Shown here piece by piece: positions 2,961-13,691 of a DNA stretch of 13,691 bases. Position 1 is the first letter of the stretch; each line of letters begins with the position of its first letter. Source of the DNA: an uncultured cyanobacterium (lineage in GTDB: Bacteria; Cyanobacteriota; Cyanobacteriia; Phormidesmidales; Phormidesmidaceae); assembly GCA_938029995.1 (NCBI GenBank), contig CALHGI010000121.1:1-13691 (forward strand), read 5' to 3'. The position numbers were made by a program, and so were the translations under genes. The notes beneath the pieces are model-generated. The model was given only the letters and a program-made list of their open reading frames with translations. It was not told the origin of the DNA and made no database searches.

Positions 2961-5900
2961 ATGTCTTCAGATTCCCCCCTAATGACCAATGGGACCTCCC
3001 ATCTTCCTCGTGATAACCGCAACAGTTCTGAGGGGGTACAGTCTGAGTTCGAACAGGTATTAAAGTATCAAAAGATTCTGGCCAAGGTCGTGAACAAGAT
3101 TCGCGCATCATTGCCCATCGAATCCATTTGCTCTTCTACCTGCCAAGAAATTAGTCACCTATTGGATGTGGATCGATTAGCCATCTATCGTTTCCATGAC
3201 GATTGGAGTGGTAGTTTTCTCAATCGATACGGGTTTGCCAGAGCTCCTTGGAACACGATGCAAGCCTTTGGCGAAATCACAGTTTGGGAAGACACTCACC
3301 TACAAGAATCCAAGGGAGGGCGCTACCGAAAAAATGAATCCTATGCCGTTCCAGATATCTATACCGAAGGCCATTCCCGCTGTCATATTGATGTTTTAGA
3401 ACAGTTTCAAATTCGCGCCTACGCCCTCACCCCCATATTTATCGGCCCTCGGCTATGGGGATTATTTGCCGCCTATCAGCACTCAGATGTGCGCCAGTGG
3501 CAGCCCATGGAGGTGGATTTCCTCTCCCAGGTGGCCGGGCACTTGGGGGTGGCACTGCAGCATGTGCAACTCAAGTTACAGGCGAAACTCCAAACCCAAC
3601 ACCTAACTGAAACCCTAGAGCGACAGCGCGCCCTCACCGAGGTGGTGAGCAATATTCGAGCCGCCGTCAGCATGGATCTGGTATTCGAAACCTCCTGCCG
3701 TGAGCTGTGTCAGTTACTCAACCTAGAACGGGCGGCAATCTATCGATTCAACCCCGACTGGAGCGGTGCGTTTATCAGCCAGTACAGCCAGCTAGATAGT
3801 CGTTGGGAAAGTAGTCACCACTTTGGGTCAGAAACCTATTGGGAAGACACCCATCTCCAGGACACCAAGGGAGGGCGCTATCGCACCAACGATCGCCTGG
3901 CAGTGCACGACATCCACGCCATGGGCTACTCCCGCTGCCATGTGGAAGTCCTGGAGCAGTTTAAAATTCGAGCCTATGCCATTGCCCCTATCTTTGTCGG
4001 ACGTCAGCTGTGGGGATTGGCGGCCGCCTATCACCACTCCGCCCCCCGCACCTGGGTTGACTACGAAGTCGATTTTCTAGCCCAGGTGGCGGCCCAATTG
4101 GGAGTGGCCATTCAGCAGGCAGAAACCGTTGCAGAATCAGAGCGACGCACCGTAGCATTGCAAAATTCCATGGCCCGCCAGCGGGCGCTGACCGAGGTGG
4201 TGGGCAAAATTCGCTCCTCCTTAAATACGGATTTGATTTTGCGCACAACGTGTCAAGAAGTCTGCGATTTGCTCAAGGTGGAACGGATCGGCGTCTTTCA
4301 GTTTGATGACAACTGGAACGGCCAATTTGTCAGCCATTTCGGCATTAATGATGACATTGGGACACCGTGGGGCAGTGGTGACGTTAGCACCTTTGGCCAA
4401 CAACTCGTTTGGGAAGACACCCATTTACAAGAGACCAAGGGGGGCCGCTACCGCAACAATGAGACCTTCGCGGTGGCCGACATCTACCAGGCTGGTCATA
4501 CCCGCTGCCATCTCGATATTTTGGAACAGTTTAAAATCCGGGCCTATGCCCTCGCGCCCATTTTTGTGGGAAACCGCCTGTGGGGATTGCTAGCGGCCTA
4601 TCACCATTCGGCTCCACGACAGTGGGATGATGTCGAAGTCGAATTTTTGGCCCAAGTGGCCACCCAGCTAGGGGTGGCCATTAAAAGTGCGGAACTACTG
4701 TCCGAAACTCAAACCCGGGCCGATGAACAGCGCTATTCAGCGGAACAGCGCCAAATTTTATTTGATGTTGTGGTTAAAATCAGAGATTCCCTAGAGCTGC
4801 AAACAATTTTATCCACCGCATCCCAGGAAGTCCGTCGTTCCCTTGGGGCTGATCGGGTGGCCGTCCTAAGTTTCGACCCAGACTCTGATTTTTGTCGCGG
4901 TGAGTTTGTGGCCGAAGATGTGGTGCCATTTTTGCAATCAGCCATGGGGGAGGTGGTGGAAGATCACCACTTTGGTCGCACCTATGCTGAGGCCTATGCC
5001 CAGGGAAAGATGCAGGTATTAGCGGACACACACGCCACAAAACTAGTGGATTGTTATGGGGATTTGTTGAATCGGTTTCAGGTTAGGGCCCACATTGTGG
5101 CACCGTTGATGGCGGGGGAAAGACTGTTGGGATTATTATGTGTCCACCAGTGCAGCCAACCACGGAATTGGAGTGATGCGGATGTATCCTTTGTGTCCCA
5201 GGTGGCGGCCCAGCTCAGTGTGGCCCTGCAACAGGTAGAGCTACTGACCCAAACCAAAAATAAAACAGAGCAGTTAGCGTCTACCATTACCGATTTACAA
5301 AATGCTCAACTGCGGATTATTCAATCGGAAAAAATGGCCAGTTTGGGTCAGTTAATCGCAGGCATTGCCCATGAAATTAATAACCCTGTGGGGTTTATTC
5401 AGGGGAATATAGACCATGCTGACGAGTATGTTCAAGACCTGCTGAAGCTGATTAATCTCTATGGCCGCTGCACGTCAGAGCCCTCCATCGAACTACAAGA
5501 GACTTTGAAACGGCTGGATGTGGGGTTTGTGGCGGAAGATTTTCCCAAGCTTTTATCGTCGATGAGATTGGGGACAGAGCGCATTAGTGAGTTTGTTGAA
5601 TCCCTACGAAATTTCTCCCGTTTAGATGAAACTCAGCATAAAGTTGCTGATCTCCACGAGGGTATCGAGAGTGCCTTAATGATTCTGCAAAACCGTCTAG
5701 ATACGTCCAAACGTCATCCGGCGATTCAGCTACTCAAAGACTACGACGACCTACCGCTGGTTAGCTGCTATCCAGGCCAAATGAACCAGGTATTCATGAA
5801 TTTACTCTCCACCCTAATTGACGAATTAAACGATTATGATCGTTTACGGCCTTTGGATGACATTGCTAGGAATCCCAGCATTCTGCGCGTATCCACACAG

Positions 5901-6179
5901 TTGAAGAATAATCGTTGGGTGGCGATTATTCTGTCTAACAATGGCCCCGGGATGACAGAAGAGGCTAGGGCAAGCCTGTTTAATTCACCATTGATGGACA
6001 GTACTTCCGGACGTATGAACCGGTTAGGATTGCCCATTAGCTACCAAATTGTGACCGAAAACCATGGGGGTAAGCTCATCTGTAAATCGTCCCTGGGTAA
6101 AGGGACGGGATTTGTGATTGAAGTGCCGATTCAACCGCAGGTAACCCTACCTCGCGAACTGGCTAATTCGTTTCATTGA
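2961..6179 (+). CDS. Tandem cyanobacteriochrome GAF sensor with degenerate histidine-kinase output domain
   Basis: A soluble 1072-residue sensor with no membrane segment. GAF1 spans about 52-198, GAF2 237-385, GAF3 421-575 and GAF4 611-757. Then come a coiled coil (about 757-795), a dimerisation/phospho-acceptor domain with His804 in AHEINNP, and an HATPase_c domain (about 920-1060). GAF1-3 each carry Trp-Glu-Asp and a Cys-His exactly 30 residues after the Asp: W109/D111/C141-H142, W294/D296/C326-H327 and W484/D486/C516-H517. From memory, this spacing matches red/green cyanobacteriochromes such as AnPixJ and Slr1393, so each probably binds a bilin through that Cys. GAF4 has D668-H-H-F671 where DXCF-type domains have Cys, and C698-Y699 in place of Cys-His, so it is probably altered or unpigmented. 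In the ATPase domain the N-box Asn is Thr951, the G1 Asp is Asn993, the F-box reads LFNSPL and the G2 box reads GRMNRLGL, so ATP binding is doubtful. The start at 2961 lacks a clear Shine-Dalgarno, and Met8 is an alternative. Confidence 0.93.
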   Translation: MSSDSPLMTNGTSHLPRDNRNSSEGVQSEFEQVLKYQKILAKVVNKIRASLPIESICSSTCQEISHLLDVDRLAIYRFHDDWSGSFLNRYGFARAPWNTMQAFGEITVWEDTHLQESKGGRYRKNESYAVPDIYTEGHSRCHIDVLEQFQIRAYALTPIFIGPRLWGLFAAYQHSDVRQWQPMEVDFLSQVAGHLGVALQHVQLKLQAKLQTQHLTETLERQRALTEVVSNIRAAVSMDLVFETSCRELCQLLNLERAAIYRFNPDWSGAFISQYSQLDSRWESSHHFGSETYWEDTHLQDTKGGRYRTNDRLAVHDIHAMGYSRCHVEVLEQFKIRAYAIAPIFVGRQLWGLAAAYHHSAPRTWVDYEVDFLAQVAAQLGVAIQQAETVAESERRTVALQNSMARQRALTEVVGKIRSSLNTDLILRTTCQEVCDLLKVERIGVFQFDDNWNGQFVSHFGINDDIGTPWGSGDVSTFGQQLVWEDTHLQETKGGRYRNNETFAVADIYQAGHTRCHLDILEQFKIRAYALAPIFVGNRLWGLLAAYHHSAPRQWDDVEVEFLAQVATQLGVAIKSAELLSETQTRADEQRYSAEQRQILFDVVVKIRDSLELQTILSTASQEVRRSLGADRVAVLSFDPDSDFCRGEFVAEDVVPFLQSAMGEVVEDHHFGRTYAEAYAQGKMQVLADTHATKLVDCYGDLLNRFQVRAHIVAPLMAGERLLGLLCVHQCSQPRNWSDADVSFVSQVAAQLSVALQQVELLTQTKNKTEQLASTITDLQNAQLRIIQSEKMASLGQLIAGIAHEINNPVGFIQGNIDHADEYVQDLLKLINLYGRCTSEPSIELQETLKRLDVGFVAEDFPKLLSSMRLGTERISEFVESLRNFSRLDETQHKVADLHEGIESALMILQNRLDTSKRHPAIQLLKDYDDLPLVSCYPGQMNQVFMNLLSTLIDELNDYDRLRPLDDIARNPSILRVSTQLKNNRWVAIILSNNGPGMTEEARASLFNSPLMDSTSGRMNRLGLPISYQIVTENHGGKLICKSSLGKGTGFVIEVPIQPQVTLPRELANSFH
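3282..4560 (+). repeat. Three direct repeats encoding the bilin-binding GAF cores
   Basis: The most conserved blocks begin at the TGGGAAGACAC motifs at 3285, 3840 and 4410, so the period is 555 and then 570 bases. The extra five codons lie in GAF3, just before its Trp. DNA similarity is high through the GGRYR and RCH segments. The pattern indicates internal duplication of one GAF module and is also a potential site for recombination or assembly collapse. Confidence 0.8.
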
Positions 6180-9263: not shown

Positions 9264-9983
9264 GTGACCGTTCTCATTTTTGACTTTGACGGTACGATCG
9301 CTGACACATTGGAAACGATCGTCACCATTACCAACCGTTTAGCCGCCCAATACGGCTATCCCCAAACAACGCCAGAACGGCTGAAGTATTTGCGCACCCT
9401 CAGTACTGGCGAACTGTTGACCCAGTCCAACGTTCCCCTATTTCAGGTGCCCTTCCTGATGCGCCGGGTACGGCGGGAACTGCGACGCGATATGGATTCT
9501 ATTCTGCCGTTTCAGCATTTGGAAGATGTGCTAAAGGCCTTTGCCGCTGACGGGCACAAAATTTTAATCGCGAGTTCCAATGCCCCTTCAAGCATTAATC
9601 CATTTCTCAGACGCCATGGTCTAAACCAGGTGTTTCGCCACGTCTATGGCAACATCGGACTGCTGGGGAAAGCCCGCAGCCTACGGCGTATTATGCGCCA
9701 ACATCGGCTAAGGTCCGAGGAAATTTTATACATTGGCGATGAAACTCGAGATATAGAAGCCGCTCGCTGCCAAGGGTTAGCGGTGGCTGCGGTGAGTTGG
9801 GGATTTAGCGATCGCACGGCCCTCGAAGCCCAAGGTCCCACATTTCTAGTGGATACCCCGGCGGATCTCTATCAAGCCGTTGGTGAATTTCACCGGAGTC
9901 AGCGGCGCCCGTCGATGGTTATGGGGTCCAAGCGGGATGGGATAGCAGAAACTCCATCATGCGTACCCCACGGAGCTGATTAG
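9264..9983 (+). CDS. HAD-family hydrolase, phosphoglycolate-phosphatase-like
   Basis: A 239-residue cytosolic phosphatase of the haloacid dehalogenase superfamily; the substrate is not determined. Motif I is DFDGT (7-11) with nucleophile Asp7 and acid/base Asp9. Motif II is IASSN (102-106) with Ser104 or Ser105. Motif III is Lys136 in GKARSL. Motif IV is GDETRD (158-163) with metal-binding Asp159 and Asp163. Residues 15-95 form a helical cap of the C1 type. All catalytic residues are present, so it should be active. It starts with GTG at 9264, which puts motif I six residues in, as is typical. No ATG lies in frame upstream and no Shine-Dalgarno is visible. The last 21 codons lie over the 3' end of gun4 on the opposite strand. 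This tail is rich in charged and small residues and goes beyond the usual HAD core. Confidence 0.92.
   Translation: MTVLIFDFDGTIADTLETIVTITNRLAAQYGYPQTTPERLKYLRTLSTGELLTQSNVPLFQVPFLMRRVRRELRRDMDSILPFQHLEDVLKAFAADGHKILIASSNAPSSINPFLRRHGLNQVFRHVYGNIGLLGKARSLRRIMRQHRLRSEEILYIGDETRDIEAARCQGLAVAAVSWGFSDRTALEAQGPTFLVDTPADLYQAVGEFHRSQRRPSMVMGSKRDGIAETPSCVPHGAD
9808..9815. repeat. HIP1 octamer GCGATCGC
   Basis: Fourth HIP1 copy, inside the HAD-family gene. Confidence 0.9.
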
Positions 9984-10647
9984 ACAGGGGTAAGTGGCCC
10001 ACCGGAGCCGATAGGTCCCACACAAATTCCCCCGGATAGCGGGTCCAAATGTTGCCCGACTTCCACTCCAGCTTTTCCCACAGACGATCCCAGTTCTGGT
10101 TCAAACCGAGCCACAGCTCCCGCTGTTTAGAAAACCCAAACCGATCCTCTGAATACACCCGCCACAGCTGGTCAATGGTCAGTAGATCCTGGTTTGGAAA
10201 ACTATCCACCTCAGTAAAATAAACCCACTTACGCTGTATCGCAGCCGGTCCGGCTAGTTCACACAGCTTTTGCAACGTAACTCGGTCCGCTTCCTCAAAC
10301 TCTTGGGCAATTAGCAGTCTTTGTAACGGTTGATAGTCAACACTGCTATTAGAGCTGAGGGGCACAATGCCGTTGGGGCAAGCCTCAGCCAAAAACGTTT
10401 GGGCCGCCACCGAGTCGCTAGTACTTAGCAGCTGGTAGGTTTTCCCCGCAGCCACGGTCGGTTCACCCTTGGTGGCCTGCTTAAGAAAATTGATCAGGGC
10501 AGTGACGCCAGGCTCCCCCATACTGGCTAATTCTGTAGCGGCACTCAGCTGACGCTTAAGGGTCTTGGAAAGCAATTGTTCGGCGAGCTCAGACGTTTTG
10601 GAGTCTAGGGAAATAGCCGTTGGAGAGTCAGCGGATACGTTACTCAT
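9919..10647 (-). CDS. gun4: GUN4, porphyrin-binding activator of Mg-chelatase
   Basis: GUN4 (Ycf53 in some plastids) binds protoporphyrin IX and Mg-protoporphyrin and stimulates Mg-chelatase through ChlH at the chlorophyll branch of tetrapyrrole synthesis. The 242 residues match the full-length cyanobacterial form (about 233 in Synechocystis). An N-terminal helical-repeat domain (about 15-90) includes LASMGEPGVTALINFL. A linker reaches DYQPLQRLL (104-112). The GUN4 core (about 115-237) carries KLCELAGPAA, YFTEVDSFP (143-151), DLLTIDQLW, FGFSKQRELW, and the conserved WTRYP and WDLSAPVGHLPL ahead of QLRGVR (224-229). The greasy porphyrin pocket lies in this core, so binding is expected to be intact. 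The protein ends at HPAWTP, slightly shorter than homologues that continue past the HPxW motif. No Shine-Dalgarno is visible before the ATG. The 3' end overlaps the HAD gene by 65 bases. The response-regulator gene lies upstream on the same strand, 145 bases away. Confidence 0.96.
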   Translation of the reverse strand: MSNVSADSPTAISLDSKTSELAEQLLSKTLKRQLSAATELASMGEPGVTALINFLKQATKGEPTVAAGKTYQLLSTSDSVAAQTFLAEACPNGIVPLSSNSSVDYQPLQRLLIAQEFEEADRVTLQKLCELAGPAAIQRKWVYFTEVDSFPNQDLLTIDQLWRVYSEDRFGFSKQRELWLGLNQNWDRLWEKLEWKSGNIWTRYPGEFVWDLSAPVGHLPLSNQLRGVRMMEFLLSHPAWTP

Positions 10648-10792: not shown

Positions 10793-11467
10793 TTACTTAG
10801 ACTCGTCCTTAGACTCCTCAGCACTCGCGGGTCGATAGCCATTTTCATAGGCATAGCGAATGAGCTGGGAGCGATTTTCCAAGGACAGCTTGCTTAAAAT
10901 GTTGCTGAGGTGGGTCTGAACTGTTCTGGGGCTAATGAATAAATGTTCACCAATCTGCTTGTTGGTAAAGCCCTGGATAACTTCCCAAAACACCTTTTCC
11001 TCGGCGGGGGTGAGGGGCAGGGGCTCTGGCGTGGGAGGCTTAGCCGCTTCTGCAGCAGGCATTTGTTGCACCATGCGAATGATTTCCGCATGCATGCGCC
11101 GAGAGCGTTCCAGCTGAGCGTCAATTTTAGCAATCAGTTCCTTAGGGTGGAATGGCTTAACGATGTAGTCGTCAGCGCCCTTGGAGTGCCCCTGAATGCG
11201 GTCATCTAGCTCGCCACGTCCCGATAGAAAGATGAACGGCACTAGCTGACCTGAGCGAATTTCTCGAAGCTTAGTACAAAACTCGTAACCATCCATTTCT
11301 GGCATCATCACGTCTGAAACCACCAGGTCAGGCTGGTCCTGTTCAAACTGGGCTAACCCTTCAGTTCCAGAGGATGCGTGGCTAACCTGGAACCCCCGCT
11401 CCCTTAGGTAGCGAGTTAATGCCGTCCGTAATGTGATGTCGTCATCAACAATGAGGATTTTTTTCAT
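10793..11467 (-). CDS. NarL/FixJ-type two-component response regulator
   Basis: A 224-residue transcription factor with an N-terminal receiver (1-120) and a C-terminal LuxR-type helix-turn-helix (about 152-210). The receiver has acidic residues Asp8-Asp9-Asp10, phospho-acceptor Asp52 in SDVMMPEMDG, the switch Ser82 and Lys104 in KPF, so phosphorylation should work. The DNA-binding domain starts LTPAEEKVFWEVIQG and contains TNKQIGEHLFISPRTVQTHLSNIL, typical of the family. A helix (about 120-136) and a Pro/Ala/Glu-rich linker (137-151) join the two. The tail ends in a charged SAEESKDESK. The layout recalls the cyanobacterial and plastid Rre1/Ycf29 group, but I cannot assign it to a named member. 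No kinase gene is adjacent. The start at 11467 gives a canonical receiver N-terminus (MKKILIVDDD). The Shine-Dalgarno is weak, and a hairpin lies in the leader. Confidence 0.94.
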   Translation of the reverse strand: MKKILIVDDDITLRTALTRYLRERGFQVSHASSGTEGLAQFEQDQPDLVVSDVMMPEMDGYEFCTKLREIRSGQLVPFIFLSGRGELDDRIQGHSKGADDYIVKPFHPKELIAKIDAQLERSRRMHAEIIRMVQQMPAAEAAKPPTPEPLPLTPAEEKVFWEVIQGFTNKQIGEHLFISPRTVQTHLSNILSKLSLENRSQLIRYAYENGYRPASAEESKDESK

Positions 11468-12033: not shown

Positions 12034-13691
12034 ATGGCTGAGTCAGGAAGTCAGGACATCAATGACCCACTACTGCAATCGCTGGATGATGATTTCCAGG
12101 CGTTGCAGCGGCATTTTGCCGATCAGCTGGCCAAGGATATTGATTATTTACAGACGGAAAAGCAGCGCTTAATTGGTGATCTGGAGGCGCTGCGGGGGGA
12201 GTATGACCAGCTCTATCTTGAGTATCAGTCCCTGAAAAGTGAGTCGGATGCCACCCTGTCTAAGCAGCAGTTGGCCCAGCAAAATGCTTGGGCTAAGCGG
12301 TTGGCCCAGGTGCTCGCCCACAATCTGCGGGAGGATCTCCATGCCTATGTGACTAATTCGGTGGATTTACCCACCCCCACCCAGGACTGGCTCCATTCCT
12401 TAGATGACACCCTGAATCGTAGTGTCAAATCGCTCCAGCACGACCTCAGTAGCTACCAAAGCGCCATTGCCCAACAGCTGACTCGCATGCAAACCATGGA
12501 GCAGCAGGGGGAGGTGATTTTAGAGAACCTGGTGGAGCGGCTGAGCAACCAGCTGGGGGATCAGCTAGTGCCGCCCCCCAGCCGCAGTGGCACCCCTTTG
12601 GCCAGTGCTTTTGACAACCGGCCCCTGGTGGATGGGAGTCCGGTGGGCGATGGGCGGGCCTATGTGGAACAGCCGCGCCTTGATCAGGTGGGTGGGTCCA
12701 CCCGTCGAGTGGTGCCGCCCTATGATGGGCAAACATTGCAACCGGCTTTGACCAGTGGGCAATTGAGTAAGACGGCCCAGCCCAGGTCCCCTGGCCGCGA
12801 TCGCACCCCTGGCCGTCCCCTTAAGAAAGGCATGGTGCTCTGTGGAATTGCCACCCTGGGGTTTAGTGCCATTACCCTGCTGGTGGGGGGGCTAAGCCTA
12901 GGGACTAATTTATTTGGGGGCACCATGGCCGGTCTCCCTGGGTTTAACTTTTTCGATGCCAATACCCTGCTTTTATTGCAGCTAGTGGTCTTAATTCCGG
13001 CTTTAGCCGTGATTGCGTCCCAGCTGTATCCCTCCGTATGGCGAGATGTGGGCCAGGCATTGCGCGTTCCAACGCGGCTGTTTTCCCTCGGTGGGGGCGC
13101 AGTCTTTTACTTTTTTGCCCAGGTTTTATTATTTCAAGCCGTTGGTAACCTCGGTCCGGCGGCAGCCGCCCCCCTGATGTTTGCCTATCCACTCCTAGCG
13201 GTACCTCTGATGTGGTGGATCAAGGGTGACCGACCGAACCTTTTACGATGGGTGGTAATGCTGGCCATTGCCATGGGGGTGGTGTTAATCTTGCGTCCCC
13301 TATCCGTTACGGCTGCTGGCGCGGCGCTGCTATCGGCGGTGGCCTTTGCCTTATATGTCGTGGTCAATAGCCTGGGCCGTCAGAGCCATCCCATCGTTAC
13401 GGGGATCATTCAGACCTGCATGATGGCCATTCTTAGCGGCCTGATTTTATTGATTCGTCCATTGGTGACGACCCAGCCACTGACGAGCCAATTTGTCGGA
13501 GTCGGCTTGGGCCTAGGCCTGCTAGCTGGCGTTAGCCAATTTTTCCACTACACGGGGTTGCGACTGGTGGGGGGGCTTCGCACAGCCCTAATAGCAGCTG
13601 CCACACCTCTGGTGACGGCGCTCCTAGCCGTGTTGCTATTAACGAATCAGCCCACCATACAGATGATTCAATGGCCCGGCATCATACTCAT
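12034..13691 (+). CDS. Coiled-coil protein fused to an EamA/DMT-type transporter domain (cut by the window edge)
   Basis: The frame is open from the ATG at 12034 to the right edge, giving 552 residues so far. The first 175 or so residues are hydrophilic and helix-forming, with heptad-like Leu/Gln/Glu spacing (for example QLAKDIDYLQTEKQ and EALRGEYDQL), so a cytoplasmic coiled coil is likely. Residues 180-263 are a Pro/Gly/Arg-rich, probably disordered linker. A hydrophobic region begins near 266 with at least eight predicted membrane helices and ends beyond the window. Residues 350-440 (FFAQVLLFQAVGNLGPAAAA, then a Pro-containing helix) and 488-537 (FHYTGLRLVGGLRTALIAA) carry the EamA drug/metabolite-transporter repeat pattern, in which the second half repeats the first. 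EamA exporters are usually about 300 residues, so the 260-residue soluble extension is unusual. The substrate is unknown. The Shine-Dalgarno at 12022-12029 fixes the start, and one HIP1 lies in the linker. Confidence 0.85.
   Translation, partial: MAESGSQDINDPLLQSLDDDFQALQRHFADQLAKDIDYLQTEKQRLIGDLEALRGEYDQLYLEYQSLKSESDATLSKQQLAQQNAWAKRLAQVLAHNLREDLHAYVTNSVDLPTPTQDWLHSLDDTLNRSVKSLQHDLSSYQSAIAQQLTRMQTMEQQGEVILENLVERLSNQLGDQLVPPPSRSGTPLASAFDNRPLVDGSPVGDGRAYVEQPRLDQVGGSTRRVVPPYDGQTLQPALTSGQLSKTAQPRSPGRDRTPGRPLKKGMVLCGIATLGFSAITLLVGGLSLGTNLFGGTMAGLPGFNFFDANTLLLLQLVVLIPALAVIASQLYPSVWRDVGQALRVPTRLFSLGGGAVFYFFAQVLLFQAVGNLGPAAAAPLMFAYPLLAVPLMWWIKGDRPNLLRWVVMLAIAMGVVLILRPLSVTAAGAALLSAVAFALYVVVNSLGRQSHPIVTGIIQTCMMAILSGLILLIRPLVTTQPLTSQFVGVGLGLGLLAGVSQFFHYTGLRLVGGLRTALIAAATPLVTALLAVLLLTNQPTIQMIQWPGIIL
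12797..12804. repeat. HIP1 octamer GCGATCGC
   Basis: Fifth HIP1 copy, in the linker of the coiled-coil/EamA gene. Confidence 0.9.

Follow-up and report, generated by a model that had tools for sequence, protein, structure and literature searches.

The analysed stretch, hereafter the window, comprises 13,691 nucleotides of an uncultured cyanobacterium of the family Phormidesmidaceae, and it bears on its forward strand (2961..6179) an open reading frame for a protein of 1072 aa, with no inner stop. The encoded protein can be parsed into four GAF domains, a DHp region and a degenerate CA domain: Pfam profiles recover the four GAF domains, HATPase_c and a sub-threshold HisKA (24.1 bits, cut-off 26.9; the intact relative P0009 reaches 27.7 bits), and NCBIfam yields nothing above its curated cut-off among the 25 matches listed for the window protein (P0001). 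Elsewhere in the window, a gene on the reverse strand (10793-11467) codes for a response regulator combining a receiver with a LuxR-type DNA-binding domain; lying ~4.6 kb from the pseudokinase gene, it is a candidate partner. A frame for a HAD-type hydrolase (9264-9983, forward) and a GUN4-like gene (9919-10647, reverse) overlap tail-to-tail by 65 bases. A further forward frame (12034-13689) runs out of the window end and, by eye, has a hydrophilic N-terminal part followed by a hydrophobic, transporter-like part.

The DHp region (5283..5750; residues 775-930) contains an H box, AHEINNP (5367..5387), with H804 and an ExxN phosphatase-type motif, E805-N808. In the adjoining CA domain (5751..6140; residues 931-1060) the HATPase_c fold is still recognisable to the profile (47.8 bits, cut-off 26.4), and its boxes have been eroded as follows: the second N-box Asn is replaced by T951 (5811..5813), the G1 Asp by N993 (5937..5939), the F-box and the start of the ATP lid read FNSPLMDS (5979..6002; residues 1007-1014; PFFTTK to SPLMDS), and the G2 box reads GRMNRLGL (6009..6032; residues 1017-1024; GKGTG to GRMNR). 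The lost Asn at 951 is the one we take to coordinate Mg. The motif positions given in the sequence-only reading were reproduced exactly by script: AHEINNP from 803, QVFMN at 943-947, STLID from 950, SNNGPGM from 992, FNSPL from 1007 and GRMNRLGL at 1017-1024, with the flanking SYQIV from 1027 and HGGKL from 1035.

We compared these boxes in an alignment of 142 rows, of which 97 intact relatives of 1000-1110 aa formed the main comparison; set apart from it were five eroded proteins (the window protein and four orthologues, P0002-P0005), three partly eroded ones (P0006-P0008) and 37 rows outside that length range. In the intact relatives, N951, P1009, F1010, F1011, T1012, T1013, K1014, G1019, T1020 and G1021 are each found in 97/97, and D993 in 96 (P0046, the exception, has N); set against these counts, the changes in the window protein are more than chance would produce. 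In the eroded proteins, N951, D993, P1009, F1010, T1012-K1014 and G1019-G1021 are missing from all five and F1011 from four, P0005 retaining it alongside M951 and S993. The remainder of the site has fared differently: of the N-box Asn pair N947 stays while N951 is gone, and N994, G995, G997, G1017, L1022, G1023 and L1024 are likewise kept in 5/5, as are H804, E805, N808 and the whole AHEINNP box. All 37 rows of other lengths have N, D, G and G at 951, 993, 1019 and 1021. Among 14 further rows from a profile search, P0154 is not a histidine kinase and was left out of the counts; the other 13 all carry N951 and D993, the exceptions at other positions being R at 1020 in P0148 and S at 994 in P0156. 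Together, the length-matched, other-length and profile-search rows provide an internal standard of 147 histidine-kinase-type relatives. The HATPase_c scores are 47.8, 48.2, 51.5, 54.4 and 61.6 bits in P0001-P0005, 70.3 and 75.8 in the partly eroded P0006 and P0008, and 82.8 and 91.8 in the intact P0009 and P0014. Thus, the H-box His expected of an active kinase is present and the residue set of the N, G1, F and G2 boxes is broken, and the retention of the His and ExxN with loss of the CA boxes across the orthologues (5/5) is the combination expected of a histidine pseudokinase with a degenerate, MaeK-like CA domain. The suggestion in the sequence-only reading that the protein is catalytically weak or dead gains strong support from the comparison with the 97 intact relatives, and judged by its residues the protein is very probably dead as a kinase.

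The four further eroded proteins are 85, 85, 84 and 72% identical to the window protein (P0002-P0005, respectively), and all five are separate records with full-length frames; P0002 is apparently encoded by genome G002, whose protein is of equal length (1064 aa). They form one clade among intact kinases with SH-aLRT 100 in trees built with and without the CA columns, both of them rapid searches that were not bootstrapped. Each tree gives the clade a long stem (0.51-0.52 changes per column), and since this holds even without the CA columns, the whole protein changed fast at its origin. A profile of the five found no sixth member among 120 listed of 8000 scored candidates, the scores dropping from 2264 to 1835 bits, and the intact length-matched relatives are 52-61% identical to P0001 among the matches listed. 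Because the nearest four orthologues share the erosion, it is a trait of the lineage: the shared loss belongs to the clade and is not strain decay.

The loss is concentrated on the ATP site. Of the positions that are at least 95% invariant in the intact rows, 15/53 in the CA domain are changed in all five eroded proteins against 14/305 elsewhere (Fisher p 8.8e-7, a nominal value since the rows are related), and 12 of 28 otherwise invariant box positions are lost in all five. When ten groups of intact rows and five individual intact rows on long branches were each held out as controls, 0-2 of 28-29 box positions were lost. Even the fast-evolving intact row P0101, which has lost 19/214 invariant GAF and 5/63 DHp positions, has lost 2/28 box positions, and therefore speed alone does not give the eroded pattern. 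Outside the CA domain, the eroded five have lost 7/210 GAF and 5/61 DHp invariant positions; because of the latter, the DHp of the clade is not untouched (DHp losses are 0-3 in 14 controls and 5/63 in P0101). At the same time, the eroded CA domain has acquired residues that are newly fixed throughout the five, among them L952, E955, S1009, P1010, D1013 and P1025, and newly fixed residues are also seen in the DHp (11) and across the four GAF domains (32).

The gene remains constrained. For one gene pair, the window gene compared with L013, the Nei-Gojobori method gives a dN/dS of 0.069 for the whole gene; by domain it is 0.029-0.078 for the GAF domains, 0.043 for the DHp and 0.086 for the CA domain (bootstrap 0.044-0.154), ratios that are rough because dS is 0.74-2.31. 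The CA value is the highest point estimate, with an interval overlapping those of the other domains. Across the eroded boxes and their immediate surroundings, 33 codons were compared; 20 are unchanged, 11 differ synonymously and two nonsynonymously, a pattern that would be improbable if 0.65-0.75 of changes freely altered residues (binomial 3e-4 to 1e-5). The CA identity among P0001-P0004 is 82-91%, close to that of intact pairs with comparable GAF domains (mean CA identities 77.6, 83.3 and 86.3). Pairs involving P0005 are slightly less similar than such intact pairs: they have 68-73% in the CA domain against intact means of 70.8 and 77.6 at equal GAF identity, and 65-72% in the DHp against 70.5 and 78.8. 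By the dN/dS of this one pair, the eroded CA domain is under purifying selection. The earlier argument that the gene is not a decaying pseudogene is thereby borne out by the dN/dS, the codon differences and the loss common to five orthologues, and the accompanying question of whether orthologues carry normal boxes is answered in its favour, such boxes occurring only in more distant relatives (at most 61% identical to P0001 among the matches listed). Strain decay or sequencing error, as a separate candidate, is ruled out by the four additional orthologues and the codon evidence.

The N-terminal part of the protein is of a light-sensing type. Three GAF domains resemble solved cyanobacteriochrome-type domains and possess the Cys-His and Asp motif, by structure-database match and alignment: GAF1 (3123..3560; residues 55-200, with boundaries set by us; W109, D111, C141, H142; best solved match 5dfx), GAF2 (3663..4115; residues 235-385; W294, D296, C326, H327; best solved match 5zoh) and GAF3 (4218..4685; residues 420-575; W484, D486, C516, H517; best solved matches 3w2z and 6bhn), all on the forward strand. 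We take these four structures to be red/green cyanobacteriochromes; in the match table they are labelled merely as chemotaxis or histidine kinase proteins. In the alignment, the bilin-pocket W, D, C and H of GAF1-3 are retained in 5/5 eroded orthologues, and the W, D and C of each in 97/97 intact length-matched rows. GAF4 (4794..5231, forward; residues 612-757; Pfam, solved match 6oap) has a Cys, C698, that is present in all five eroded proteins and in 36/97 intact rows; because it has no WED or CH motif, we are unsure whether it would bind bilin. The description of the protein as light-gated thus gains support from the domain type and from pocket residues conserved in five orthologues, with bilin binding itself standing as a prediction.

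In its occurrence, the eroded form is restricted. Among 63 genomes of the family, E <=1e-200 is reached in three: the genome that the window comes from and G002, both with the eroded form, and G035 with an intact one (55%). At this threshold the eroded form is thus seen in 2/8 genomes of the genus. In the class, a match at 1e-250 is found in 14 out of 388 genomes, and apart from G000 and G002 all of these (12; L094-L105) carry intact boxes. The gene order leuA, pseudokinase gene, alpha/beta hydrolase and ABC1 is conserved in G002 (L106); six loci from intact relatives (L014, L107-L111) did not show the leuA/hydrolase/ABC1 neighbourhood. In the frames inspected at L107, L108 and L109, a simple regulator does not lie adjacent in all three; upstream at L109 there is a receiver-kinase protein. 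No close intact sister was found in G002 (91% complete), where the next-ranking match reaches 41% across residues 580-1058, while absence of a sister from the window's genome is weak evidence because that assembly is 70% complete (733 contigs). A recent duplication beside an intact sister was therefore a candidate without a trace in G002, the window's genome being too incomplete to judge it; and given that the next match in G002 reaches just 41% over those residues, a mixed dimer with a close, recently copied intact sister is not supported. The two carrier genomes contain 30 additional kinase-like loci that were examined; those that are readable (L002 and L011, with no readable H-box frame, were left out of the count) have N951 in 28/28 and the G1 Asp in 25/28. 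Among such loci, L008 (window's genome, C94) and L124 (G002, C180) are a pair of multi-GAF kinases, 75% identical over 809 aa, with the G1 boxes AKNGLTV and SNNGPAV in place of.DNG.G and with their N, F and G2 boxes retained; L010 (window's genome, C38) is a 364-aa kinase frame with the G1 box ENNGPAI, MH for MN in the N-box and otherwise normal boxes.

Since the loss is shared by a small group in which the phosphate-accepting site and the light-sensing domains have been kept, the protein probably still signals by another route. Several known systems offer points of comparison. In MaeK of Lactobacillus casei (PMC5457438, as excerpted), the CA domain is degenerate and binds no nucleotide, and the His and E/DxxT/N motif are retained; its CA-domain deletion abolishes growth on malate, with misfolding a possible cause, and for the N-box the excerpt says 'a conserved Asn', no more specifically. 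As in the Mae1 group so described, the window clade has lost the CA boxes across an orthologue group while retaining the phospho-acceptor His and the E/DxxT/N motif; unlike the window protein, which is of the multi-GAF light-sensor type, MaeK is a membrane citrate-family sensor with its cognate regulator gene adjacent. In the excerpted account of DrBphP (PMC8292422), the N-box Asn is replaced by His, kinase activity is lacking and the protein is a light-activated phosphatase. It resembles the window protein in joining a bilin-type light sensor to a HisKA kinase core with a replaced N-box Asn, and differs in having PAS-GAF-PHY rather than cyanobacteriochrome GAFs, His at H+1 rather than Glu805, and fewer lost boxes. 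The signature of the DrBphP type, as given there, pairs N-box Asn loss with His at H+1, whereas the window clade combines loss of N951 with Glu805 in 5/5; it may thus work in a DrBphP-like manner without the DrBphP signature. DivL of Caulobacter is likewise described as a kinase fold without kinase activity (PMC4211667, as excerpted), an inactivity that the window protein is predicted to share; DivL has lost the His, while the window clade keeps it (H804 in 5/5) and has lost the ATP site. Finally, intact 4-GAF cyanobacterial kinases such as P0009, P0014 and P0152 (Synechococcus sp. PCC 7335) match the window protein in length, architecture and GAF and H-box residues, and differ from it in retaining N951, D993, the F-box and G2.

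Hence, with confidence somewhat short of even, we propose that the protein is a light-regulated histidine pseudokinase that does not autophosphorylate and that most likely acts as a response-regulator phosphatase. Here, the cyanobacteriochrome-type GAF domains would sense light and shift the DHp helices, and the degenerate CA domain, which would not bind Mg-ATP productively and so would not phosphorylate H804, would persist as a folded, conserved part setting the conformation of the DHp. The most likely output would be the light-dependent dephosphorylation of at least one response regulator via the ExxN motif E805-N808, the phosphate on such regulators being supplied by other kinases or small-molecule donors. 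A phosphatase is favoured because of the precedents of MaeK and DrBphP in their excerpted accounts; the first counterpoint is that DrBphP, as there described, joins the N-box loss to a His at H+1, where Glu805 is found in 5/5 here, and the second is that the retained H804 equally suits a phospho-acceptor. The DHp losses of the clade and the slightly lower DHp and CA identity of pairs with P0005 also count against the proposal. At the level of sequence, the three roles named in the sequence-only reading (scaffold, phosphatase and partner phosphorylated in trans) would look alike.

Such a phospho-acceptor subunit, dimerizing with another, active kinase so that H804 is either phosphorylated in trans or drains the partner's phosphate, would graft a light input onto that kinase. 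It would explain why the AHEINNP box, H804 included, is kept in 5/5, could draw on the many other intact-box kinases of both carrier genomes and has a precedent in the phosphate-siphoning heterodimers of RetS-GacS (PMC12189002, as excerpted), but with no close sister in the 91%-complete G002 we regard it as unlikely. A scaffold or sensor that performs no phosphoryl chemistry, and in which the dead core binds a regulator or kinase and light alters the partner's activity, is doubtful too. It fits the CA positions newly fixed in all five and the constraint on the eroded CA domain seen in dN/dS, and in the excerpted account of DivL a kinase core has been turned to sensing a regulator; however, that core has Tyr in place of the His that is here kept with the entire H box in 5/5, and the newly fixed residues extend to the DHp and the GAF domains. 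A weak but real kinase, binding ATP through other residues and autophosphorylating slowly, is quite improbable: the eight CA-box residues retained in 5/5, the above-cut-off HATPase_c score and the change of the G1 Asp alone in the otherwise intact P0046, L008, L010 and L124 speak for it, but N951, D993, the F-box and most of G2 were lost together in 5/5. A pseudogene in decay, or an artefact of sequencing error or frameshift, to which the long stem and the fragmentary 70%-complete assembly might point, can be dismissed as exceedingly improbable given the loss in five full-length proteins from separate records, the low overall dN/dS with box codons differing mainly synonymously, and the gene order conserved in G002.

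The partly eroded proteins P0006-P0008 are 95-97% identical to one another; their boxes read HEISNP, FDPLF and GKGNGLAL, and the G1 Asp is retained. Residue 951 is Q, H or N in them, the H of P0007 recalling DrBphP, and 5/28 box positions are lost. As neither tree places them with the window's clade, they suggest that this loss has begun a second time, and more recently. A dead ATP site with a retained His (MaeK) and a phosphatase-only light sensor (DrBphP) have been described, as excerpted in the sources above, and we recognised no paper on a cyanobacteriochrome pseudokinase in our searches of the open-access full-text literature, subscription journals being outside that scope. In the present case the loss is a whole-clade trait, gauged against an internal standard of 147 further relatives of histidine-kinase type, and a partly eroded group stands alongside, so that the order of loss and the role of the remaining protein can be tested. 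It also follows that the label 'histidine kinase' derived from HATPase_c can mislead. More broadly, we entertain as a tentative possibility, one that we lean against at present, that a lineage of cyanobacteriochrome kinases has turned into ATP-free, light-controlled regulators, in which the dead CA domain has gained a new conserved surface (L952, E955, S1009-P1010, D1013 and P1025) and the protein controls how far regulators that receive their phosphate from other kinases are phosphorylated, with P0006-P0008 seemingly starting on the same path. If true, multi-GAF light kinases would have become pseudokinases recurrently.
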